DNA of 64,000 nucleotides from Arcanobacterium phocae (GTDB lineage Bacteria; Actinomycetota; Actinomycetes; Actinomycetales; Actinomycetaceae). Positions within the stretch are counted from its first letter, which is position 1. Each line of letters opens with the position of its first letter. The stretch covers positions 496,001-560,000 of the forward strand of contig NZ_LT629804.1 of the NCBI RefSeq assembly GCF_900105865.1, read 5' to 3'. Of this stretch, positions 17,488 to 64,000 are shown in pieces. Both the position numbers and the translations under genes were made by a program. The notes under the pieces were generated by a model that was not told where the DNA came from, ran no database searches, and was given only the letters and a program-made list of their open reading frames with translations.

Positions 17488-20400
17488 CTAGATTCGGCGG
17501 CGCTTACCTACGTAAGTCGCTATCAAACCTGCTAATAGGATTACTAGAAGTCCAGTAACACCCACATCCACTCCAGTCTTTGCCAAACGGCTAGACGATT
17601 GGGCACTAACTGTTCCTCCGTTAGTGCCGTTTTTCTTTAGCACAGTTATTTTCACAACCGACGACGGCTGCTCACCGGCGATATTAGATGTTGCTACAGC
17701 ATAATGCTCACCTGGAGAAACGGTCTCGGGTATATGAACGGTATAGGACTTAATCATTCCTTGGGAATCAGAAACCTCAGTGCCAAGTAATGTTGGTTCA
17801 GAGTAGAAGAAGATGCGCGCTGGCATTTCGCTCTTCAATCCACTGAAATCAACATCTACTGACTTACCTTGTTCAACTGTGTACTGACCATCAAGCTTTA
17901 CCTTTCCATTGGCTATATCAGCCGCGATTACTGATGAATCAGCATACGTTGGCCCAGTTAATACTGCATCTAGAATTTTGATCCATGGGATGGACATTCC
18001 ATCTGGTTTCGATGGACCTGGCTCAGGTTGTGGATCCGGTTGTGGATCCGGTTGTGGATCCGGCTCAGGTGCCGGCTGCGGATCCGGCTGCGGATCTGGT
18101 TCTAGGTTCCCGGTATATTTGATTTCAAACATCTTAGTTGTTCGATGATCTTCTGACTCAACAATTATCCTCGATACTCGCTCAAATTCAGGAACAATTG
18201 TCACCGCCGCATTATCCTCGGAATAGGCTTCCAACATCTGGGGTTTAGCAGCAGGAGATGTGTAAGACCAGGAATCAAGCGCCTCTTTGGACAATTCTTC
18301 ATCGTTAAGCACAACCTTGGTTAACAAGGCCGTTGAATGAACGTCATAAGACTGTTTCACACCTTTGAGGAATATCTCCGATATACCAGTTACCGGTTTG
18401 ATATTCGGCCTAGCAGTCTTACCGTTGACATTATTGTGTACCTCAACCTTCAGATACGTCGTCGTCACTGGATCTAGCTCATATTTGTAAGGCTGAACGT
18501 TTCCTTGTTCATCGCCGATTGTTTCTCTTGATTCTACAAGCTTCCACTCTTCATTAACCGTGTCTCGTACAAAGAACCTCGTCGAATGAGGCTCCGGGTA
18601 GTTGGCCGACCAACCATCTCGATAGAACCACACCTCAAATTGGCTAAACTGCTGCGGAGTATCGTAGGCAAACACAAGGTCCGCAAATTTTTCGTCAGTC
18701 TTTTGCGTATTTTCATAATTCGTCCAAACGTTTTTGTTCGGACCGTTACCATCATGGCTCGGAACTGCGGTTTTACTATCACGAATCGCTTCAAGCGTGT
18801 CAGATTGCAAAGCCGGATCAATCGATTGAGTCAACGACTTCGCTGCCCCGGCTAAATTATCACCAACTGCAACCGTCGGTTCTTGCACACGAATAGTCGC
18901 AGTAACCTCATATTTCTGGTCAAAAATGGTTGTGGCACCGTGAACTGTCACAGTTCCAGGTTTATCCCAAACACTAGCCTCAGGGTCCTGCCATGTAACT
19001 GGGAACGACGTCGATAAAATTGCTCCATCCGGCATTACTACAGGGCGCGTAGAAGGAAGTTGGGCAACTGTTCCTACTGGTGACGTTGCTGAATAATTCA
19101 GAACTGCGCCAACCCCATCAATCATAATGATGTCAATATCAACCTTATCTCCGACGCCCGTTTTTCCAGAAACAACAAAATGACCAGCTTTGCCGTATTG
19201 CTTTGCAGTGATGTCGTCCCATGTCACCTTAGTAGTTGAGGAACGATTATCAGCATCGTAACTTTCAATAACCTCAGGAAGAATCGGCTTATGACCTGTC
19301 TTGACATAAATATTACGTGGATAGCGATAGTGATCCGCACCAGATTCACTCGATGGATCCGTATTGTCATTCGTCGTAATTACAGTTACTGACTGTGGAG
19401 TCATTCCTTCAGCACTTGCAGTCACAGTAAACGATCCTGCTTTCTTAGTGGATTTCGCAATTGCTAATGCTTTACCCGAGAAAGCTCGACGCTCAAGTGA
19501 CTGATAGGACGTATGGTCTGCTTGCTCTCCATTATCAGTACCTACTATTTCGCCGTTTCCCTCAATAGAGAAGGTTATAGGCGTGTTTGCGTCAGGCACA
19601 GGTTCGCCTTTGGCATCCGTTACGGTGACGTCAACATAAGCGAGATCGCTACCATCAGCAGCAATCGAATTACGGTTAACGTTTACCTTTAGTGATTGCG
19701 CTGGTCCCGCCGTCGTCACTTTATTGCGCCCATGCGTATCGGAAATTATCTGACCGTCTTTGTCTTTCGCTACTGCTTCTAAAGTTCCGTCAGCATAAGG
19801 AACCTCCCACGTGAAATATAGATTTTCGTGGTCTACCCTCTTTTTATCTGTTCCTTCGTAGAGTTGATACCGGTATCCAGCCTCTGTTTTCTTTACAGTA
19901 AATTTCTTTTCGCCGAGTGATTTTTTCTGCCCATGCGTATCAATAAAGAACAATTCAACACGCGGCGCATCTGAATAAACATCTACCTTCACTTTTCCTT
20001 GTGAATTGGCGACGACGTTGCGGTTCCATGCTGGCAAAATATGAAGGGTATGGAGATTATCATTCCATTGGCTTTGATACAAATAATAGGAATCTTTCGG
20101 GAAACCAGCAGTATCAATAATGCCAAAATAGGAATTCTTTGGTGATGGCCATGAGCCTACAGCACCTGGTGAATCACCAAACCAGAATGTTGGTTCACCG
20201 ATGTAATCGAAACCAGTCCATACAAATTCTCCAGCAACATAATCGCGGGTGATGATATCGTACCAAGCCTCAGATGCGTATGCTCCCCATCCAACTTTAG
20301 AACCGTCATATGAGGTCAGTTGTTTGTCCGCAGTACGCCCGCTATCGTGCGTACGATTATATATTCCACGACTATTTACTGATGACGCAGTTTCGGAGCC

Positions 20401-22089
20401 ATATAGTTTCCAGTCAGGATGCTGGGAATGAATACTGTTGTATTTATTTCCCGCAACATAATTCAAACCAACTGTTCCATCAGCCTTAGCTAAGGATTCC
20501 ATGAGCGTCGCAGCACCTGGAGCACCGTCTTTGAGCTGATTGTCCCCGCGGGTAACTGGCCGGGTTTTGTCAATCTGCTGTGTCCACTTAATGAGGTCGG
20601 CTTGCTGACTGGTATAATTCGCCATGAGGGTGTACAAGCCTGTTCCCTCACCAATTTCATTTCCTAAAGACCACATGATCACGGATGGAGCATTTATATC
20701 CCGCCGTATTGTTGCTTCAAGGTCGAATTGTGCCCATGTACTTTCGGGTGCCACATTTTCTAAAGCAGTGTTCAGTGGCACTGGCTTCTCAAAGAAACGG
20801 GCATAGTCATTGTAATTTCTGTTCTTTGGATGATGAAACCCGTCAAAAAGTTCTTCGACGATAAGCATCCCTTTTTCATCTGCAAGATCGATCAAATCGC
20901 GCGATGCTGGATTATGGGTGACACGAATGGCATTGGCGCCCATCTCTTTCAAGATATCGATTTGTCGCTCTATGGCAGCACGATATGCTCGAGCACCTAA
21001 CGCTCCTTGATCGTGATGCATGGATACGCCCTTGAGCTTCATTCGCTGACCGTTGAGCGTGAACCCGTTGTCAGCATCGAACTGCGCATTCCGGAATCCA
21101 GTTTTAACTGTGACTTCATCAAGTGGAGTATTATCCACATCAGAAATTTTGGTTACCACCTGGTAACGTTGCGGATTATCCACGCTCCACATCTTGATGT
21201 TATGTGCTGTAATTGCTGCCGTTTCATCAGCCTCAGATCCAGGAGCGATCATGAGTTTCTGTGCACTACTTTCACCTAATGTTTGCTTACCATCAAGTGA
21301 TGTCAACACGTGCGTAACCATAACTTCAGCAGGTTCCGCTGATTCATTTACTACTCGTGCAGTGGCATTAATGTCGAGATCGCCTTCAGTGGCTGTTGCA
21401 ATATTGGGGGCGACAACAGTTACCCCATCGTGAGCGATATGGACAGGGTTAGTAACCACGAGGTCAACATTGCGATAAATTCCTGAACCAGAATACCAGC
21501 GACTTGAGGGAAGCTCATGGTTGACTTTAACAGCTACGACGTTGTTCGCCCCGATTTTCACATAATCAGTGATATCTACCGAAAATGGGGTGTATCCATA
21601 TGGATGGTTTGCTACTTCAGTGCCGTTGACATATATGGTGGCATCCATATAGACGCCATCAAAATTCAAGTTAATTCGCTTGCCAACGAATTTCTGATCC
21701 AGAGGTAGGTTTTTCCGATACCAACCAATGCCCCCTAAAAGATATCCACTTTCTGCCTCACCTTGCTGGGTAAATTCCTGTTCGATGGAATAATCATGTG
21801 GAAGATCTAGGATCCGCCATTGAGCATCGGAATATTCCGGCGACTCAGCACCTTTTTCCTCTCCTAGTTTAAATTTCCAACCAGTATTGAATTGTTGGAT
21901 ACGCACACTTGCATCTAGTGGAGTGGTGTAGACATCTTCTGCATCAGATGCCATTTGTGTGCTTGTTGAAAGTCGAGAATAATCTTGTGATGCGGATGCT
22001 ATCGGAAGCGATCCAAAAGTTGATAGCGCTAGCACAAGTGTGCTTGCTATCGCACTTTTGCGCCAGTTGTTGGCTTGCTTGGTACGCAT
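17488..22089 (-). CDS. Cell-wall-anchored GH2 beta-galactosidase (BgaA-like)
   Basis: A 1533-residue surface enzyme. A signal peptide (cleavage near residue 34) is followed by the GH2 jelly-roll, Ig-like and TIM-barrel domains (about 60-660). Predicted acid/base is Glu478 in WSLGNEIG and nucleophile Glu566 in GSETASS. Next come DUF4982 and Ig-like domains, two Big_4-like repeats (TVTWDD / PVTWQD), a discoidin-like domain, an Asp/Pro repeat spacer, an Ig-like domain shared with the GH20 protein, and the sorting signal LAKTG (1502-1506), a hydrophobic stretch and RRR. By analogy with pneumococcal BgaA it would remove terminal galactose from host glycans. It follows the GH20 gene by 89 bases. 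GAGG precedes the ATG. Confidence 0.92.
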   Translation of the reverse strand: MRTKQANNWRKSAIASTLVLALSTFGSLPIASASQDYSRLSTSTQMASDAEDVYTTPLDASVRIQQFNTGWKFKLGEEKGAESPEYSDAQWRILDLPHDYSIEQEFTQQGEAESGYLLGGIGWYRKNLPLDQKFVGKRINLNFDGVYMDATIYVNGTEVANHPYGYTPFSVDITDYVKIGANNVVAVKVNHELPSSRWYSGSGIYRNVDLVVTNPVHIAHDGVTVVAPNIATATEGDLDINATARVVNESAEPAEVMVTHVLTSLDGKQTLGESSAQKLMIAPGSEADETAAITAHNIKMWSVDNPQRYQVVTKISDVDNTPLDEVTVKTGFRNAQFDADNGFTLNGQRMKLKGVSMHHDQGALGARAYRAAIERQIDILKEMGANAIRVTHNPASRDLIDLADEKGMLIVEELFDGFHHPKNRNYNDYARFFEKPVPLNTALENVAPESTWAQFDLEATIRRDINAPSVIMWSLGNEIGEGTGLYTLMANYTSQQADLIKWTQQIDKTRPVTRGDNQLKDGAPGAATLMESLAKADGTVGLNYVAGNKYNSIHSQHPDWKLYGSETASSVNSRGIYNRTHDSGRTADKQLTSYDGSKVGWGAYASEAWYDIITRDYVAGEFVWTGFDYIGEPTFWFGDSPGAVGSWPSPKNSYFGIIDTAGFPKDSYYLYQSQWNDNLHTLHILPAWNRNVVANSQGKVKVDVYSDAPRVELFFIDTHGQKKSLGEKKFTVKKTEAGYRYQLYEGTDKKRVDHENLYFTWEVPYADGTLEAVAKDKDGQIISDTHGRNKVTTAGPAQSLKVNVNRNSIAADGSDLAYVDVTVTDAKGEPVPDANTPITFSIEGNGEIVGTDNGEQADHTSYQSLERRAFSGKALAIAKSTKKAGSFTVTASAEGMTPQSVTVITTNDNTDPSSESGADHYRYPRNIYVKTGHKPILPEVIESYDADNRSSTTKVTWDDITAKQYGKAGHFVVSGKTGVGDKVDIDIIMIDGVGAVLNYSATSPVGTVAQLPSTRPVVMPDGAILSTSFPVTWQDPEASVWDKPGTVTVHGATTIFDQKYEVTATIRVQEPTVAVGDNLAGAAKSLTQSIDPALQSDTLEAIRDSKTAVPSHDGNGPNKNVWTNYENTQKTDEKFADLVFAYDTPQQFSQFEVWFYRDGWSANYPEPHSTRFFVRDTVNEEWKLVESRETIGDEQGNVQPYKYELDPVTTTYLKVEVHNNVNGKTARPNIKPVTGISEIFLKGVKQSYDVHSTALLTKVVLNDEELSKEALDSWSYTSPAAKPQMLEAYSEDNAAVTIVPEFERVSRIIVESEDHRTTKMFEIKYTGNLEPDPQPDPQPAPEPDPQPDPQPDPQPEPGPSKPDGMSIPWIKILDAVLTGPTYADSSVIAADIANGKVKLDGQYTVEQGKSVDVDFSGLKSEMPARIFFYSEPTLLGTEVSDSQGMIKSYTVHIPETVSPGEHYAVATSNIAGEQPSSVVKITVLKKNGTNGGTVSAQSSSRLAKTGVDVGVTGLLVILLAGLIATYVGKRRRI
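18021..18101. repeat. Tandem 12-base repeats encoding the DPQP spacer
   Basis: Repeats of GGTTGTGGATCC and close variants inside the GH2 gene encode a run of DPQP/EPDP units. This is a proline-rich wall-spanning spacer before the anchor-proximal domain. Copy number is likely to vary between strains. Confidence 0.8.
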
Positions 22090-22178: not shown

Positions 22179-25100
22179 TCACGATTCGTAACGACGACGA
22201 AGCAGGATCATCGCCATTCCGAAACCTAGCAAGGTAACCGAGATAACTCCAACAAAAGTAAGCGAGCTACCAGTTTTTGCAAGAACTTGCGTGTGTTGCG
22301 ATGTAACTTGATTCTGGTTTGGGAGCTGTCCATGTCCGTCTGTACGTGACTCAACTACGGTAATTCGCACAATAGATGATGGCTGATGCATGCCAGCAAC
22401 ATTTGATGTTGCAACCACATAGTGCGTTCCCAGCGGAGCATCAGTTGTCTTTACATCAAATTCAGCGCTACCACTATCTGAGGCAGTCACATCACCAATC
22501 TTTGTTGGTTCAGAATACAAGTACACACGTGCTTGCGCATTCTTTTCCAATCCAGCGAAAGTGACTTTAACGTTTTCGCCTCGTTCCACTGTGTATTGAC
22601 CGTCAAGCTTAACGCTCTCATCAGCCAACGCTTTCTCAATCATCCCCGAATCAGAATAAACTGGATCAAGATTTATCCCAGGAACAAGCGGTAGCCAATC
22701 GACATGTGGACGGGCAGGCGGCTCAGGCTGCGGTGCCGGCTCAGGCTGCGGTGCCGGCTCAGGCTGCGGTGCCGGCTCAGGCTGCGGATCAACTGGCGGA
22801 ACTGGTTTTTCATCGTGAGTATCTGGTACCTGCGGTTTGCGATCAACTATGAAATCAAGAGTTGCTACGCTTGGTTGAGCAGGCTTCAGTACATATTCAG
22901 CTGTGCTCGTTAGTTCTACGGAGGCCTTCTTGTCAGCATCTTTGGCTATTGTGGCATCCCAGGCGAAAGATATGGATTGACTTGGTTCAAGGCTACCATT
23001 CCAAGTAAGTTTTCCAGTATTGTTAAGCTTTGCTGGAGCAACCTTCAGCGGACCGCCTGCACTGTAAGCTTCAATCTCGAATAGTGAAATTCCGTAATCG
23101 GGAAGGGAACGTTCGTTTCCTGTTATCGTGATTGCCGTTACGCGTTTCTGGTCAATACTATGCTCTGCCCATACCGCATTTTTATTACTCTCGCGAGTAA
23201 ACGCGAACTTATCTACTGTGGTGGAACCATCTGGATGAGCATAGGAAACCGTGTACTTTGTTGCATAGGCCCCTTCCCAGGCTAACCGAAGTTTGACAAG
23301 ATCTGTTGCTTCTTTAAATGTGACAGTGATGGATTCGCCGTCTTTCTTGCCGACTGATGACCATCTCGAGTCAGCGTTCGAGGCATCTCCATCAATAGCT
23401 TTGCTGGCATCAAACTTCGCAACTTCTACAGAACTTGCCTCAGCTGTAGCGCCTTCTGATGCAAGAGCAACGTTTTTCCCTTCTGACATAACAGGTTTAC
23501 CGTCATTATCAAGAACTTTAACTGGTACGTCACCAGCTGCTGTTTCAAGGAACGTAGACGTTACTTTCGCATCAATAGGGAATGTTTGGTTGGATGTATT
23601 TTTTATTTGTCCGGTCACAGTGACTGCCATCCCAGGTTTCACTGCTGTTCCAGATTGTGGAGAGACTAGGTCTGATTGGGTTCCGACGACGATCTGGTCA
23701 ATGTTTGCCGGTATTTCTGGAGCATCTCCAACTGCAGCCATTGCATTCGTGAATTCTTTGATTGTGCGCTTATCGCCGGAATACCAAACGCGGTCTGCAA
23801 ACGCAGTGTATGGACCTTTTGATTTATCAGCAACTTGTTCTTCAGTCAATGCACGAGCTATGTCGGACCAAATAGCAAAAGATGCACCACGTAGCCAGGT
23901 TGGATATGTTGTATCTTTACCTAGCACTGGTTTTTCTTGTGGAAATGCCTGTGGTCCACGACCTTGAGCTAAGCCTGGGAATCGGCCCGCATGGAAACCG
24001 CCATCAACAGAATCATTGCGCTGTCCTAGATAGACACGCTCAACCGTTGGATACTTATAGCCGGCTGCTTCACCAAGTACGAAGTACATGTAGGCATCAT
24101 TAAAGTTGACTAGCTTAAATCCTCGATCAACAAAATCCTGGACTGACGTCATCGGCCTATCCCAATTCGTCCAGTAGTCAATAGTGAGATCTTTGTTCAG
24201 TTCAACCTTTTGAGCTACATCCGAACGATAAAAAGCATCATTCCACACTCGGACATCAGTCTTGTGATACTTGTCTTTCACATAGGTAGCCATGTCGTTA
24301 ATGAATGACACAAAACCGTCAACAAATTCTTTGTCTTGACCAAGCTTAGCTTTAATACGCTCGACCGCTGCTGGATATTTCTGTCCTGCCTGAGTGAAGT
24401 TTACGTATTCATCTGCTCCTAGATGCCATTTATTTGTATCAGGGAAAAGGGGAGCAAACTCATCAATAAGTTCTTTGACAAATTTTTCTGCTTCAGGTTT
24501 CGAAAAATCAAGGCCGCGAAGATGCTCTTCATTATTAGAGCCAATGTATCTCGGCTCTAAGCGAAGATCCGCATGCTGAGATAACACTTGCTTCATATGT
24601 CCTGGCATATCGAGTGCAGGTATTACCTCAATATGATATTTCTTTGCTTCGGCTAGTATCTCAGCCAGCTCGCTTTGAGAAATATATCCGTCCGACGACA
24701 TGATTTCTGGATGTTTCTTCGATTCCAGTCGGAAACCTTCATTTTCTGAAAAGTGGAGTTGCAACGTATTAATCTTGCGGTAGCTCAATTGATGAATCAG
24801 ATTCAGAAGATAATTTTTAGAATAGAATTTCCGGGCCATATCTTGATGGAACGATCGTTCGCTAACATCGGCCCAATCGCGTACCGTTCCTGCTTGCACA
24901 CCACCTGAGCTGGCAACCGACTGAACAACAGTCTGTTCACCCCAGAAGGCCCCATCCGCGGATTTTCCGGTTACTGTAAGCCGGTCTTTAGTCGAAACTA
25001 TTTGGTACCCATCATCACGCGGAACATCTTTTAGTTCCGGATCGACGCGGAGCACAATATCGTCAGCGTCAGCTTCACCATCGATTTCTACTGTTGGCTT

Positions 25101-25358
25101 TATTTTGCCCTTGATAGCCAGATCCAGAGCAAGTTTATTCGCATCATCTTTAAGGTCAGAAGGAGCTACAATTTTCGTTTCCTTCGACAGTTTCCATGGT
25201 TGTCCGTCGTCGGCACTAAAATGACGCACAGCAGGAATAACGGCTTTAATTCCTGCTTCTTCTAATGGTGTTGCAAGCGCACTCGAAACACAACTTAACG
25301 AAGAGAACGCAAGAACTGTTGCTATTGCGCCTCCAATTAGTTTTTTATGGGTAGACAT
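22179..25358 (-). CDS. Cell-wall-anchored GH20 beta-N-acetylhexosaminidase (StrH-like)
   Basis: A 1059-residue surface enzyme. After a signal peptide (cleavage near 30) come a GH20b N-terminal domain (35-160) and a GH20 TIM barrel (165-500) with the catalytic Asp316-Glu317 pair in HLGADEY. Then follow an NEW3-like linker, an F5/8 (discoidin) domain (about 630-765), an Ig-like domain, an EPAPQP repeat spacer, the anchor-proximal domain shared with the GH2 protein, and LAKTG (1026-1030) with hydrophobic tail and RRR. It would remove terminal GlcNAc or GalNAc from glycans. Pneumococcal StrH has two GH20 modules; this has one. Two adjacent ATGs exist (25361, 25358); the second is better spaced from GAAGGG. 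First gene of a two-gene operon. Confidence 0.92.
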   Translation of the reverse strand: MSTHKKLIGGAIATVLAFSSLSCVSSALATPLEEAGIKAVIPAVRHFSADDGQPWKLSKETKIVAPSDLKDDANKLALDLAIKGKIKPTVEIDGEADADDIVLRVDPELKDVPRDDGYQIVSTKDRLTVTGKSADGAFWGEQTVVQSVASSGGVQAGTVRDWADVSERSFHQDMARKFYSKNYLLNLIHQLSYRKINTLQLHFSENEGFRLESKKHPEIMSSDGYISQSELAEILAEAKKYHIEVIPALDMPGHMKQVLSQHADLRLEPRYIGSNNEEHLRGLDFSKPEAEKFVKELIDEFAPLFPDTNKWHLGADEYVNFTQAGQKYPAAVERIKAKLGQDKEFVDGFVSFINDMATYVKDKYHKTDVRVWNDAFYRSDVAQKVELNKDLTIDYWTNWDRPMTSVQDFVDRGFKLVNFNDAYMYFVLGEAAGYKYPTVERVYLGQRNDSVDGGFHAGRFPGLAQGRGPQAFPQEKPVLGKDTTYPTWLRGASFAIWSDIARALTEEQVADKSKGPYTAFADRVWYSGDKRTIKEFTNAMAAVGDAPEIPANIDQIVVGTQSDLVSPQSGTAVKPGMAVTVTGQIKNTSNQTFPIDAKVTSTFLETAAGDVPVKVLDNDGKPVMSEGKNVALASEGATAEASSVEVAKFDASKAIDGDASNADSRWSSVGKKDGESITVTFKEATDLVKLRLAWEGAYATKYTVSYAHPDGSTTVDKFAFTRESNKNAVWAEHSIDQKRVTAITITGNERSLPDYGISLFEIEAYSAGGPLKVAPAKLNNTGKLTWNGSLEPSQSISFAWDATIAKDADKKASVELTSTAEYVLKPAQPSVATLDFIVDRKPQVPDTHDEKPVPPVDPQPEPAPQPEPAPQPEPAPQPEPPARPHVDWLPLVPGINLDPVYSDSGMIEKALADESVKLDGQYTVERGENVKVTFAGLEKNAQARVYLYSEPTKIGDVTASDSGSAEFDVKTTDAPLGTHYVVATSNVAGMHQPSSIVRITVVESRTDGHGQLPNQNQVTSQHTQVLAKTGSSLTFVGVISVTLLGFGMAMILLRRRYES
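22720..22787. repeat. Tandem 18-base repeats encoding EPAPQP
   Basis: Three exact copies and one partial copy of GGCTCAGGCTGCGGTGCC encode the proline-rich spacer of the GH20 protein. Exact copies suggest recent expansion and possible length variation. Confidence 0.85.
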
Positions 25359-25490
25359 CATTGTCCCTTCCAAGCGAAATACATCTAAGGACGATATATA
25401 GCTCATTGATTCTAAGGCTGTGTCGAATCTTCATACGGGCAATCATCATTGATTTTACGTATCTTCATTCTTCACGTTTTCAGTCTAGTT

Positions 25491-25506
25491 GCTAAAACGT
25501 TTTAGT
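25491..25506 (-). promoter_or_regulatory. LacI-type operator upstream of GH20-GH2 operon
   Basis: GCTAAAACGTTTTAGT contains the perfect palindrome CTAAAACGTTTTAG with the central CG typical of LacI-family sites. On the minus strand a TTTACT hexamer overlaps it, and TAGACT lies 16 bases further on, giving a plausible -35/-10 pair. The GH85 gene has a near-identical site at 61104-61119 in the same register to TTGACT. Confidence 0.65.
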
Positions 25507-25552
25507 AAAACCATTTTTACAAACAAATATAGAAATTTTTGCTATCCACGCC

Positions 25553-25620
25553 GCACAAAATCTCGCCCAGCGCAACGGTAGCAGCCTATATCGCACTACC
25601 ATGCTGAATCTCGAGATTTT
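25553..25620. repeat. 68-bp dispersed repeat, copy B
   Basis: Gapless alignment partner of 17407-17474. This copy has a longer outer stem, GCCGCACAAAATCTCG / CGAGATTTTGTGCGGC (25550-25565 with 25612-25627), and an inner GGTAG / CTACC stem. It resembles a REP or miniature inverted-repeat element. It sits in the gene-free stretch 25359-25635, which otherwise holds only the GH20 promoter and operator. Confidence 0.75.
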
Positions 25621-25635
25621 GTGCGGCACAGAGCA

Positions 25636-25674
25636 AACAAAAAAATCCCGGTAGGCTATTTCCTACCGGGATTT
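25636..25674 (-). terminator. Intrinsic terminator after tRNA-Ala
   Basis: A 13-base-pair stem (AAATCCCGGTAGG / CCTACCGGGATTT) is followed on the minus strand by a run of seven Ts, directly after tRNA-Ala. Confidence 0.9.
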
Positions 25675-59355: not shown

Positions 59356-59388
59356 TTTTGCACGTAACAAATGAAATTACGGAGAAAA

Positions 59389-60969
59389 ATGTCTAACCTT
59401 AAAATTAAATTTCAGTCGGCAGGGCGTGGTAGAAAAACAGCTGTCACTATTGCTGCTCTTTCTGTTCTAACAACAGGACTTGTTGTGAATAACCATGCTG
59501 TCACAGTAGCTAGTGCAGCCGATGCTAATCAAAGCGGTGCGGTAGCCGAAGTTAGCCGGCCGATGTGGGATGCCGTCGGATATGTCTTTCCGGGAGAGGC
59601 AGTCATATTTCCTAACCGTGGCGGAGTTGTTCCTGGTGACGTAGCGCCTGGCGCGGTGGCTTCGCCGTTCGGAGCTTCCATTAGTCGCGATGGAACAATA
59701 ATTGTCAGTGCCGATAATAACGCGCAACCTGGCAATAAGATCTCGATAGACATTCGTACAGGTAACGGTCTAGGGGACGTTGTTGGGAAAATCCAGGTAA
59801 TTGTCGCTAATGACAGTGATAAGGATGGTTATCGAGATCCAGAGGATCCAAAACAGCCCAAGGAAAACGAAGATAAATGCGAAAATACTCCTCATGACGC
59901 TGCGATTGATAAAAATGGTTGTACAGTAGCTCCACAGTTTGCTGAGAGTCAGTTTCCTGAGATCACCGGTACCAAGGGTACAGCTATTGATCCAGTACTA
60001 ATCTTCGTTGGCAATAGTGGAAAAGCAACTGATCTTGTTTGCGCAGGAGAAGGACTAGCTGGCCTTGAGATTGCATATGACAATGAATCGCATTGTCGTA
60101 TTTCTGGAACGCCGACCGAAGCACTCGATGGTATGTATAAGGTAACTGTTACCTCCAACCGAGTAGACGGCGATAAATCTGCCCACACGCCAGTGAGCAA
60201 GAGTGGCGGAAAAATTAAAATTACTTCGGAAAATGTAAATAAGCCGGCCCCGGCCCCAGCTCCAAAGCCTGCTCCTGAAGAGCCAAAGCCTGCTCCGGCT
60301 CCAAAGCCTCAGCCGCAGCCTCAGCCGGAACCTGCTCCGGAAAAGCCGCAACCTCAGCCAGAGAAGCCGGCTCCAGCCCCAGCTCCACAGCCTGCTCCTG
60401 AACAGCCTAAGCCGGAGAAGCCGGCTCCAGCCCCAGCTCCACAGCCAGAAGTTGCACCAGTTTCTCCTAAGTTCGTTGATCCACATGCAGACGATCCAGC
60501 CACCTGCAAAATCAAGCCATTTGCTACCGTGAAAGAACAAGCTGGCGTCATCTACACAGTCACTGTTAATGGTAAGGAAATCAAAGCAAATAACGAAGGT
60601 AAGTTCGTATACGGCTATGGTGAAACAATCGTCGTCAAGGCAGTCCCGGCAAAGGGAACTCAGTTTGCTAAGAACGCAAAAACTGAATGGACTTGGACAG
60701 CTCCTACACGTGAAGCACTTAAATGCTCCGTTCCATGGACAAAGCTAAATCCGGCAACTCCAATCAAACCGCAGCATGAGATGAACCAAAAAGAGGAGAA
60801 GTCTCAAAAAGCATCGAACTCGGATCGATCAATGGCTACCAAGACTCAAGCAACTAGTGAAAAGCCACAACTAGCAAAGACCGGTCTTGGAATGAGTGCT
60901 TTGATGTTGATTGGTCTTGGATCTGTCATTGTTGGTGCAGTGATGGTCCGACGTCGTCCACAAAACTGA
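59389..60969 (+). CDS. LAKTG-anchored proline-rich surface protein
   Basis: A 526-residue secreted protein of unknown function. After a signal peptide (cleavage near residue 45) come a beta-rich domain (about 50-145), a short calcium-binding-like TSP3 segment (DSDKDGYRDPEDP with paired cysteines), a putative Ig domain of the He_PIG type (ISGTPTEALDGMYKVTV), and a long proline/alanine/lysine/glutamate spacer (about 285-360). A cysteine-paired domain (365-455) and a LAKTG sorting signal with hydrophobic tail and RRR follow. It is probably covalently attached to the wall by a sortase. The ATG at 59389 follows GGAGAAAA; a slightly longer frame was rejected. It could be an adhesin. Confidence 0.85.
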   Translation: MSNLKIKFQSAGRGRKTAVTIAALSVLTTGLVVNNHAVTVASAADANQSGAVAEVSRPMWDAVGYVFPGEAVIFPNRGGVVPGDVAPGAVASPFGASISRDGTIIVSADNNAQPGNKISIDIRTGNGLGDVVGKIQVIVANDSDKDGYRDPEDPKQPKENEDKCENTPHDAAIDKNGCTVAPQFAESQFPEITGTKGTAIDPVLIFVGNSGKATDLVCAGEGLAGLEIAYDNESHCRISGTPTEALDGMYKVTVTSNRVDGDKSAHTPVSKSGGKIKITSENVNKPAPAPAPKPAPEEPKPAPAPKPQPQPQPEPAPEKPQPQPEKPAPAPAPQPAPEQPKPEKPAPAPAPQPEVAPVSPKFVDPHADDPATCKIKPFATVKEQAGVIYTVTVNGKEIKANNEGKFVYGYGETIVVKAVPAKGTQFAKNAKTEWTWTAPTREALKCSVPWTKLNPATPIKPQHEMNQKEEKSQKASNSDRSMATKTQATSEKPQLAKTGLGMSALMLIGLGSVIVGAVMVRRRPQN

Positions 60970-61043: not shown

Positions 61044-61103
61044 CTACGTATAATGAAAAAATTTCATAGATTTTCGTACAAGAAAGAGCTATATTTTCCT
61101 TGA

Positions 61104-61119
61104 CTAAATCGTTTTAGTG
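61104..61119 (+). promoter_or_regulatory. LacI-type operator upstream of GH85 gene
   Basis: ACTAAATCGTTTTAGT, directly overlapping a TTGACT hexamer (61101-61106), lies 48 bases before the GH85 start. It matches the GH20-GH2 site at 25491-25506 in 13 of the 14 core bases and in the same orientation to the -35-like hexamer. Confidence 0.65.
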
Positions 61120-61166
61120 TGGTGTGCTTAACGTGAGCTTGATATTCAATGACGAAAGGATCAAGT

Positions 61167-64000
61167 ATGCACAAGAAAGAAAGCCAGCGACGTTCCACTA
61201 AAATAACCGCACGTGTTATCGCGTCTTCACTTGCGGCCACACTAAGTTTTAGCGTAATAGCAACGTCAGCACAAGCTGCAGATACTGTATATAACAAAGA
61301 TGAAAAGTCCCTTGGGAGCGCACAACCGAAGAATATGGGGCATCGACTACAAGATGTTCGTGATTGGAGCCCGCAAACTGATCCATTTGCAGCATTTATG
61401 CGTTCAGATATTCCACTCCAACAACGCACTCAACATGACCCATCCACGCAAGCCCATCAGAGTCTGGATGGGAAAGCAGAAATTATGTTAATGCAAGGAG
61501 ACTACGGAAACTCCTTTTTTGATAATTTCCGCGCAAACAATGACGCTAACCAGCACACTCTGCAATTCTGGCAGTATGCTGATTATTGGAGCCCGTGGCA
61601 TGGTAGTGCATCGATAGGTACCCCACGAGCACTCTATGATCCAAAGACTAGCGCATGGCAGCGGCGTGGATTTGAATTCGGAATCGTTGATATCCCAAAT
61701 CCTGCTTGGACTAATGCGGCACATCGTAATGGCGTCAAGTCCATTGCTACTATTTACTTTGATCCTGCATTTCGGCCAGCTCTTACTCTTCATGAGGCAT
61801 TTGAAAAAGATGAGAATGGCGAGTATAAGACTGCAAAGAAGCTCGTTGAGATAGCGAAATATTATGGCTATGACGGCTATTTCTTAAATGATGAAGAGAC
61901 TAATCTTTCTGAAGATGAACTTCGCCCATTCATGAAATACTTGACCGATCATGGGTTATATACGCAGTGGTACACCAACAGTTCATCCTACTGGGATCAA
62001 ACAAAATCATCATGGCTGGGTACCGGGAAAAACGAGATCATGAATTCCGTATTCCTGAATTATCGATGGGCTGGAAGCGCAAATAACACAATTGCTGGAG
62101 CTGCGGCGGGCGGATACGATCCACACCACGATTTGTTCTTCGGCGTCGAAGCGAATCAGGGAAGGCTTGATAATCGTCATAACACAGCCTCCAGCGTCCC
62201 GGAGCTGTACGTCAGTGATGAAAACCATTCTCCAAAAGCATCGATAGCGCTGTTTACTCCGTCGGATTATTATCATCGGGGGCTCGACGACGATTTCCGC
62301 GATTTGAGCAAAGCTGATGATCCAGTGCATCAGCGTGATGGTTTCCAATGGATGGTAGACGCACGCCAGCGCCTCTATTTCTCTGGTGGTTCGAACAATC
62401 CACTAAAGAGTGGATTTAATAAGAATGAAGATATTTCTGATGTAACTAATACTCAGACAATGAAGTGGGGTGGAGTAGCTGATTTCACTCCGGCTCGTTC
62501 AGTTATTAAAGGGGATTCCTTTGCCAGTAGTTTCAATATTGGCCGTGGTCTAAGCTGGTGGACTGATGGAGTTAAAACCGGTAATGAGCAATGGGCGAAT
62601 ATGGATTCCCAAGACATCCTTCCGTCATGGCAGTGGCTAGTAAAAACCGAGGACAGTAACGCTACGCTAACTGCAGACTGGGATATGGGAAACCAAGAAA
62701 CCCGAGTGCAAAAAGACGGATCTAGTGCAGCTCAAATTCCATTCACTCCAATTGGAGCATATAACGGGGGAAACTCGTTAGCAATCCATGGGTCGAGTAA
62801 TAAAGAAGCGACTTTCGGTCTGTACAAGACACAACTTGAAATAAACACAAAATCAAAGCTCAATCTTGTTACTCGTCAAGTTTCTGGAGATGCTGGCAAA
62901 GTATATGTTGAGCTAACATTCAAGGACGAACAAAACCCAGTTGATGTTGAACTTACCGATATTAATAAGGAAACTTGGTCCGTTCAGAACATAGATCTTG
63001 CCAGCTATGCTGGCAAAACGTTAACCTCGATCAATCTAAAGTTCGAAAAAGCTCAAAACTATCAACTCAATCTCGGAGCCCTATCAGTGAATGCGGGTGA
63101 TCCGGCGCCGAAGGCCCCTAAAAATATTCATATCGACCATGTCTATGAGGATGGTCAGCTTGTACTGGGTTGGGACGAAGCTGAATACGGTGATGTTGTC
63201 AACTATCGAGTAAGTGCTCTCGAAAACGGTGTTGAAAGCCATTTATATAAGGGATTTACAAACCTTGCCTACATCAAGAATGCACCACATAACGACGTCG
63301 TCTACCGGGTACAAGCAATCGGTAAAGATGGACAGCTATCAGCACCAGCAGAAGTGAAGTTTACGATGGCTGGTTTGCCGAGTGATGTAAAAATTGCGAG
63401 CAAGGCTGTCACCGAAGTTCATGTCGGAGATAATGTTATTTCTGGACATGAACCGCTTCGAGTTTTTGCTGATGGGGACAAGAACCTGACTGTGACGTGG
63501 AAAAATACTGCAGTTACTGCCGAACGGTGTGTCATTTTTGCTCAACTTGCTGATCGTGCACAAGGGATGTTGACAGATTTCCATAAGATCGTTTCGTGCG
63601 CTGATCAGCATGCAACGATTGATATTCCGGTTTCTGAGGGTTATCCAGTAGACGTGACACTAACGCCGGTTGGAAGTCCACTGGGATTAACCGTTCACGG
63701 CGAAACGGCTGATACTTTAGCTCGTCCGATGCCGATCAGTGACCTAAAGATTCAGGAGGAACAAGGAAAGAAAGTCTATCGGTTCTTTAATCCTTCAACG
63801 CCAGACTGGGCAGGACTTGAAGTTAGCTGGAAAGATGGTTCAGGCAAGCTAACAAAGATTTCCACTCATGTTCGTGGAGACACTACCCAAGCAAAATTCG
63901 GGTATGCGCCAAAGACAGACTCGATTGTGAAATGGCGTGATCTGCCAGCTGACAACGGAACAATTGTCGCTCGTTTGACCGATACCGCAGGCAATGTGAC
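61167..64000 (+). CDS. GH85 endo-beta-N-acetylglucosaminidase (EndoD-like), partial (3' end outside window)
   Basis: The first 944 codons of a secreted enzyme; the frame is open to the window end. A signal peptide is cleaved near residue 37 (TSAQA). The GH85 barrel (about 90-560) contains QFWQYADYWSPWHG, IATIYFDPAF and the catalytic YDGYFLNDEET, with predicted Asn241 and Glu243. Carbohydrate-binding-like (about 520-650) and fibronectin/Ig-like domains (about 650-944) follow. Family members cut the chitobiose core of N-glycans, releasing the glycan from the protein. AAAGGA precedes the ATG. A C-terminal sorting signal is likely but lies outside the window. Its promoter shares an operator with GH20-GH2. 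Confidence 0.9.
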   Translation, partial: MHKKESQRRSTKITARVIASSLAATLSFSVIATSAQAADTVYNKDEKSLGSAQPKNMGHRLQDVRDWSPQTDPFAAFMRSDIPLQQRTQHDPSTQAHQSLDGKAEIMLMQGDYGNSFFDNFRANNDANQHTLQFWQYADYWSPWHGSASIGTPRALYDPKTSAWQRRGFEFGIVDIPNPAWTNAAHRNGVKSIATIYFDPAFRPALTLHEAFEKDENGEYKTAKKLVEIAKYYGYDGYFLNDEETNLSEDELRPFMKYLTDHGLYTQWYTNSSSYWDQTKSSWLGTGKNEIMNSVFLNYRWAGSANNTIAGAAAGGYDPHHDLFFGVEANQGRLDNRHNTASSVPELYVSDENHSPKASIALFTPSDYYHRGLDDDFRDLSKADDPVHQRDGFQWMVDARQRLYFSGGSNNPLKSGFNKNEDISDVTNTQTMKWGGVADFTPARSVIKGDSFASSFNIGRGLSWWTDGVKTGNEQWANMDSQDILPSWQWLVKTEDSNATLTADWDMGNQETRVQKDGSSAAQIPFTPIGAYNGGNSLAIHGSSNKEATFGLYKTQLEINTKSKLNLVTRQVSGDAGKVYVELTFKDEQNPVDVELTDINKETWSVQNIDLASYAGKTLTSINLKFEKAQNYQLNLGALSVNAGDPAPKAPKNIHIDHVYEDGQLVLGWDEAEYGDVVNYRVSALENGVESHLYKGFTNLAYIKNAPHNDVVYRVQAIGKDGQLSAPAEVKFTMAGLPSDVKIASKAVTEVHVGDNVISGHEPLRVFADGDKNLTVTWKNTAVTAERCVIFAQLADRAQGMLTDFHKIVSCADQHATIDIPVSEGYPVDVTLTPVGSPLGLTVHGETADTLARPMPISDLKIQEEQGKKVYRFFNPSTPDWAGLEVSWKDGSGKLTKISTHVRGDTTQAKFGYAPKTDSIVKWRDLPADNGTIVARLTDTAGNV

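Follow-up and report, generated by a model that had tools for sequence, protein, structure and literature searches.

One putative LacI-family operator connects scattered genes for host N-glycan use in Arcanobacterium phocae

Two palindromes in front of glycosidase genes of A. phocae are very probably operators of a single LacI-family regulator, encoded by a lacI gene at genome positions 481545-482573, which is predicted from sequence to control a pathway for host N-glycans. Both palindromes lie in the window, the 64,000-nucleotide stretch of DNA that was analysed here. The sequences establish that the sites exist, that they are rare in the genome, which genes they adjoin and that they are conserved beside this lacI gene. 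Five operators together plausibly span the complete N-glycan pathway. The glycan-responsive regulon predicted by an earlier sequence-only reading of the window gains support from these five putative operators before pathway genes.

Both 16-base palindromes, GCTAAAACGTTTTAGT in front of the GH20-GH2 operon and ACTAAATCGTTTTAGT in front of the GH85 gene, were verified in the window (Table 1). The first was found exactly where the sequence-only reading had placed it and the second, assigned to 61104-61119, is present one base further to the left; the core CTAAAWCGWTTTAG that the two were said to have in common occurs at both sites. The pattern ACTAAANCGNTTTAGT is an even palindrome of approximately 16 bases with a central CG, as is found in LacI-family operators. 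In the genome of 1,998,242 bases, CTAAAWCGWTTTAG is restricted to the two window sites. Simulated 2 Mb genomes, generated from an order-2 chain that had been fitted to 120 kb of the A. phocae genome, contained no match in nine of ten cases and two matches in the remaining one. A search of the window only, allowing up to two mismatches, returned five matches, a number equalled in 1 of 100 shuffles and thus weaker evidence than the genome-wide counts. This shuffle and the simulated genome with two strict matches are what could be expected if the palindromes were functionless products of chance, but the four near-exact places in the genome all fall on one pathway, and the sites are conserved against diverged flanks and recur in matching contexts in other genomes. 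The counts over the whole genome, together with simulation and conservation, rule out a chance palindrome for practical purposes, and we give this explanation next to no weight. As a separate observation, an inverted repeat with two perfectly matching 16-base arms (GCCGCACAAAATCTCG and its complement, window 25550-25565 and 25612-25627) is located between the GH20 operator and a terminator-like hairpin (25643-25674), beside tRNA-Ala and tRNA-Ile.

Scanning of the 2.0 Mb genome for ACTAAANCGNTTTAGT with at most one mismatch revealed exactly four places, and three further places carried exactly two mismatches (Table 1). The sequence-only reading had expected such a scan to hit glycosidases, sugar transporters and one lacI-type gene, which was borne out by all four places of the first group and by one of the three in the second. 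The site between lacI and the GH38 gene lies 13.3 kb to the left of the window. Places with three mismatches (48 of 55 in total) correspond to background level, because a control with the pattern read backwards gave 123 matches. Two genes, one sialidase-like (694252) and one for a fucosidase (437491), were considered as targets and rejected, the best score within 400 bases before open frames being 9/14.

Table 1. Positions of the putative operators, promoter elements and associated genes. Coordinates refer to the window unless marked as genome positions.
Feature	Position	Strand	Remarks
Operator ACTAAATCGTTTTAGT	61103..61118	+	before GH85; 64 bases from first operator base to start codon
Operator ACTAAAACGTTTTAGC (on - strand)	25491..25506	-	before GH20-GH2; same sequence in G004
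-35-like TTGACT	61100..61105	+	overlaps GH85 operator; invariant in 5/5 aligned GH85 promoters
Possible weak -10, TGTGCT	61123..61128	+	candidate, 17 bases after -35; preceded by TGG
-35-like TTTACT	25504..25509 (reads 25509-25504)	-	overlaps GH20-GH2 operator
Possible -10, TAGACT	25482..25487	-	candidate by eye, 16 bases after TTTACT
GH85 endo-beta-N-acetylglucosaminidase	61167..64000, past window to genome 560898	+	1243 aa; LAKTG sorting signal at C-terminus
Surface GH20 beta-N-acetylhexosaminidase	22179..25406	-	PF00728, E 4.3e-40; LAKTG sorting signal
Surface GH2, beta-galactosidase-like	17488..22089	-	operon gene 2; LAKTG sorting signal; PF02837/PF02836/PF18565
Operator	genome 557103		the window site before GH85; 0 or 1 mismatch
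Operator	genome 521491		the window site before GH20-GH2 operon; 0 or 1 mismatch
Operator	genome 482676		between lacI (481545-482573) and divergent GH38 (482745-485774); 0 or 1 mismatch
Operator	genome 464118		98 bases from AGE-family gene (464216-465478); 0 or 1 mismatch
Operator	genome 328306		2 mismatches; 122 bases before SBP gene; two permeases and GH20 downstream
Place with 2 mismatches	genome 33084		inside FemAB-like frame (name by eye), unrelated gene
Place with 2 mismatches	genome 400825		inside PBP-like frame (name by eye), unrelated gene

The assignment of the window genes to GH85, GH20 and GH2 in the sequence-only reading is backed by Pfam. The GH85 gene, read on into the next contiguous stretch, matches PF03644 (E 1.9e-47), and its best PDB relatives are GH85 structures. 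By eye, Met15 or Met16 in the listed frame is the probable start codon of the surface GH20 gene. Compared with NCBIfam, the GH2 protein reaches 628 bits for GalB, which is under the cut-off of 900. A 532-aa gene (window 59371-60969) immediately before the GH85 operator has a weak He_PIG match and, by eye, a LAKTG-like C-terminus; the genome operator scan showed no site before it.

At the operator loci, LacI, PfkB, GH38, AGE epimerase, SBP, permeases and GH20 were confirmed by Pfam. The GH20 protein of the importer operon has no signal peptide by eye. The protein encoded after GH38 gave no Pfam match at E ≤1e-3 (0.001); since the exo-beta-1,4-mannosidase 6gvb heads its PDB relatives (E 1.4e-117), with GH5_18 structures next, it was taken as GH5_18. 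D-mannose isomerase is the best NCBIfam match of the AGE protein (396.6 bits, under the cut-off of 600), and its PDB relatives are YihS-type and sulfoquinovose isomerases, so that its substrate is not fixed by the name mannose-isomerase-like. For the PfkB protein, the best NCBIfam match is fructokinase (158.1 bits, under the cut-off of 450). Close to the lacI locus, five large frames follow one another on one strand (L024 9990-19982, genome 469990-479982); four of the five have near-identical lipoprotein-like N-terminal stretches, giving the appearance of a tandem paralog array.

Six LacI genes of the genome score over the Pfam cut-off and none of them lies in the window, in line with the sequence-only reading, which had placed the regulator elsewhere; the predicted candidate is found just outside, approximately 13.4 kb to the left of the window start. 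A match in L009 (21.8 bits) was under the cut-off and was excluded from this count. The candidate combines a LacI helix-turn-helix domain (PF00356, 53.7 bits) with a periplasmic-binding-protein-like effector domain (PF13377, 101.9 bits), both over cut-off. Its residue L56, invariant in 12 aligned relatives, may be the counterpart of PurR Leu54, a conserved leucine of the hinge that inserts into the CG step at the operator centre. The existence of six LacI genes would allow the operator to be bound by a different LacI protein, or by several. Yet the recognition helix AVSFALN is confined to the candidate, and the site upstream of its own gene scores 13/14, as opposed to 8-9/14 at the five others, which differ in their recognition helices and have no upstream site. 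Moreover, the lacI adjoining the site is its conserved partner in relatives. The other five were rejected as regulator on the basis of helices and upstream scores, and binding by any of them is highly improbable.

Promoter anatomy points to the mode of control. The -35-like hexamers noted in the sequence-only reading are both present, in identical register to the palindrome. Alignment of five GH85 promoters showed that TTGACT, a distance of 17 bases and TGnnnT are all invariant, as is TGnTGnnnT around the possible -10 element; the operator core is also invariant, and the flanks have diverged. Similarly, eight aligned GH38 promoters have invariant TTGCnC and TAnnnT separated by 17 bases, with the operator occupying the spacer. 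Throughout the promoters compared, the sites are kept while the flanks diverge. An operator over the -35 region and spacer is in a position typical of repression, which suggests that transcription would be repressed through blocking of polymerase. A strict sigma-70 consensus scan called no promoter at either window operator site, and the -10 elements of the window promoters are poor by consensus. The latter would suit a regulator that acts as an activator, or in a dual manner, instead of as a simple repressor. Against such an activity stand the location of the operators over -35 and spacer and the invariant elements that surround the operator in the GH38 promoters, and we consider it unlikely. 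Despite the empty sigma-70 scan, the arrangement of the promoters suggests repression by blocking of RNA polymerase.

Comparison with other genomes revealed that the operator accompanies the same genes in relatives. Exact copies of CTAAANCGNTTTAG occur at 24 places in 13 of 99 genomes (A. phocae included), and 22 of the 24 precede this lacI/GH38, GH85, GH20, an EndoS-type GH18, an SBP gene or GH125. Ten places lie between this lacI and a divergent GH38-type gene (in some cases identified through sequence similarity alone), five before GH85, two before GH20 and one, in G033, before the EndoS-type GH18 gene. Four places in G078 belong to GH38 (one), SBP (two) and GH125 (one). The remaining two are situated before another LacI-like gene (G083) and at a place without clear context (G059). 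LacI relatives at E ≤1e-30 were detected in 41 of the 99 genomes. A site scoring 12/14 or better is present upstream of lacI in 12 of the 13 close relatives (identity 44% or higher) and in half, 15 of 30, of the LacI relatives examined as loci. All ten genomes that have GH85 (10/99) also have a LacI relative (p 7e-5, uncorrected for kinship). Seven of the ten GH85 genes are preceded by the operator; a search over 450 bases gave no good site for those of G050, G009 and G021. In G015, a single site between lacI and GH85 is common to both genes.

Site scores of surface GH20 relatives (at least 50% identity, 44 genomes) were 13 of 14 in G000 and G004, 11 in G001 and 9 in G007, a genome of the same genus in which the 450 bases searched at the surface GH20 gene contain no good site. 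Both G004 and G007 retain the importer site. G001 carries the importer and a GH20 gene directly after GH38-GH5_18, with a site of 12 before lacI and one of 11 before the AGE gene. In G033, the protein behind the same operator is of EndoS type (L054 5001-7803; PF23916, E 5.5e-77), and the search of the 99 genomes gave no GH85 match there. It seems that the endoglycosidase of G033 was exchanged while the operator was kept.

A wider profile scan of named genomes, with patterns that included the recognition helix, covered the best 80 of 554 relatives. Among these best 80, 77 have a site of at least 11/14 upstream of lacI; Streptomyces accounts for 63 of the 80, which are therefore not independent. 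Such a score is reached by 0.25% of Markov sequences, and controls taken from inside genes had a maximum of 10/14. The exceptions were L124, L126 and L130. No site upstream of lacI was found in Bowdeniella nasicola (G040/L124) and in the MAG L130, and in Cutibacterium namnetense (L126) the operator is located before the importer SBP gene. Tessaracoccus massiliensis (L135) has the operator before GH85. When perfect palindromes were counted without a given consensus, the CTAAA half-site was the commonest, occurring in 11 of the 35 regions upstream of lacI, against 2 at most in shuffles. A second palindrome, TTCCA(N4)TGGAA, was present in 8 of the 35 regions, for example in Streptomyces.

A central CG and a palindromic form are common to the operators of many LacI-type proteins, including global ones. 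The sites might accordingly serve a global catabolite regulator of the CcpA/cre kind, their co-occurrence reflecting general sugar repression and no N-glycan regulon. Only seven places with up to two mismatches exist in 2.0 Mb, however, and five of these are on one pathway, so that the operator set does not consist of many sites before diverse sugar operons. Furthermore, the site tracks a single lacI gene across genomes, and the NCBIfam CcpA match is weak (89.8 bits, cut-off 442). We therefore judge a global regulator to be very unlikely.

For the local LacI regulon, we infer that the protein binds DNA and represses instead of activating, and likewise infer its inducer and the precise substrates of the enzymes. 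When substrate is missing, a regulator dimer would sit on ACTAAANCGNTTTAGT, over the -35 region and the -35/-10 spacer, and exclude RNA polymerase. Once N-glycan fragments are in the cell, a mannose-containing breakdown product may release the regulator. Release would lead to joint production of the surface enzymes GH85, GH20 and GH2, the ABC importer with cytosolic GH20, the cytosolic mannosidases GH38 and GH5_18, the mannose-isomerase-like and fructokinase-like enzymes, and the regulator itself. Judging from the enzyme families, GH85 would remove N-glycans from glycoproteins, and surface GH2 and GH20 would trim galactose and GlcNAc. The importer would bring fragments in for degradation by cytosolic GH20, GH38 and GH5_18, and the mannose obtained would be converted to fructose and phosphorylated.

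Parts of this arrangement have counterparts in other bacteria. Cutibacterium acnes possesses a GH38/GH5_18/GH20 locus for the N-glycan core that also includes an ABC transporter and a regulator gene, and the GH38/GH5_18 pair has been named in Arcanobacterium haemolyticum (PMC6160142). According to the available text of that paper, the C. acnes locus resembles that of A. phocae in its cytosolic enzymes, importer and regulator gene; the regulator is neither named nor studied there and no operator is given. The secreted enzymes of C. acnes are described as dispersed (PMC6160142), whereas in A. phocae surface and cytosolic parts would be under one operator. Ravcheev et al. (PMC4052901), surveying LacI regulons, list ManR groups for mannose and mannosides. 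These are LacI-family local regulators of mannoside use, as proposed for the A. phocae regulator; the terms 'glycoprotein' and 'N-glycan' are absent from the main text of the survey. NglR, a NagR paralog of Bifidobacterium longum subsp. infantis, is predicted to control a gene cluster for complex N-glycans (PMC9599254) and so offers a further case of N-glycan gene control in an actinobacterium. NagR belongs to the ROK family (PMC4746261, in whose available text mannos-, N-glycan and GH38 do not occur), and NglR/NagR thus differ from the A. phocae regulator, which is LacI and not ROK by Pfam. TCS07 of Streptococcus pneumoniae places host-glycan enzymes, transporters and intracellular catabolism under one regulator (PMC7075642). 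It is similar to the A. phocae regulon in that a single regulator coordinates host-glycan use, but, as described in the accessible part of that article, it is a two-component system of a firmicute whose regulator family is unrelated to LacI. Other LacI regulators of bifidobacteria are named in the accessible part of PMC4908950, and that of PMC10154615 mentions neither LacI nor a repressor. No description of a LacI regulator of N-glycan genes was found in the titles and abstract openings of the literature searched.

The system is a local LacI sugar regulon, a kind already known, and not a new kind of system. Its surface and cytosolic enzyme genes are scattered over the chromosome and linked by one putative operator. 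We consider it likely that a LacI protein with the AVSFALN helix and the operator ACTAAWNCGNTTTAGT form a switch of glycan use that is old among actinobacteria and in Actinomycetaceae became an N-glycan regulator tying a surface endoglycosidase to uptake and cytosolic breakdown. In this family the endoglycosidase would be exchangeable (GH85 in most, EndoS-type GH18 in G033) with the operator retained, and the operator can for this reason point to unknown N-glycan enzymes. For Arcanobacterium and its relatives, the work names a candidate regulator, operator and set of genes by which host N-glycans would be used, and the operator may help to predict more enzymes and transporters for N-glycans elsewhere in the Actinomycetota.
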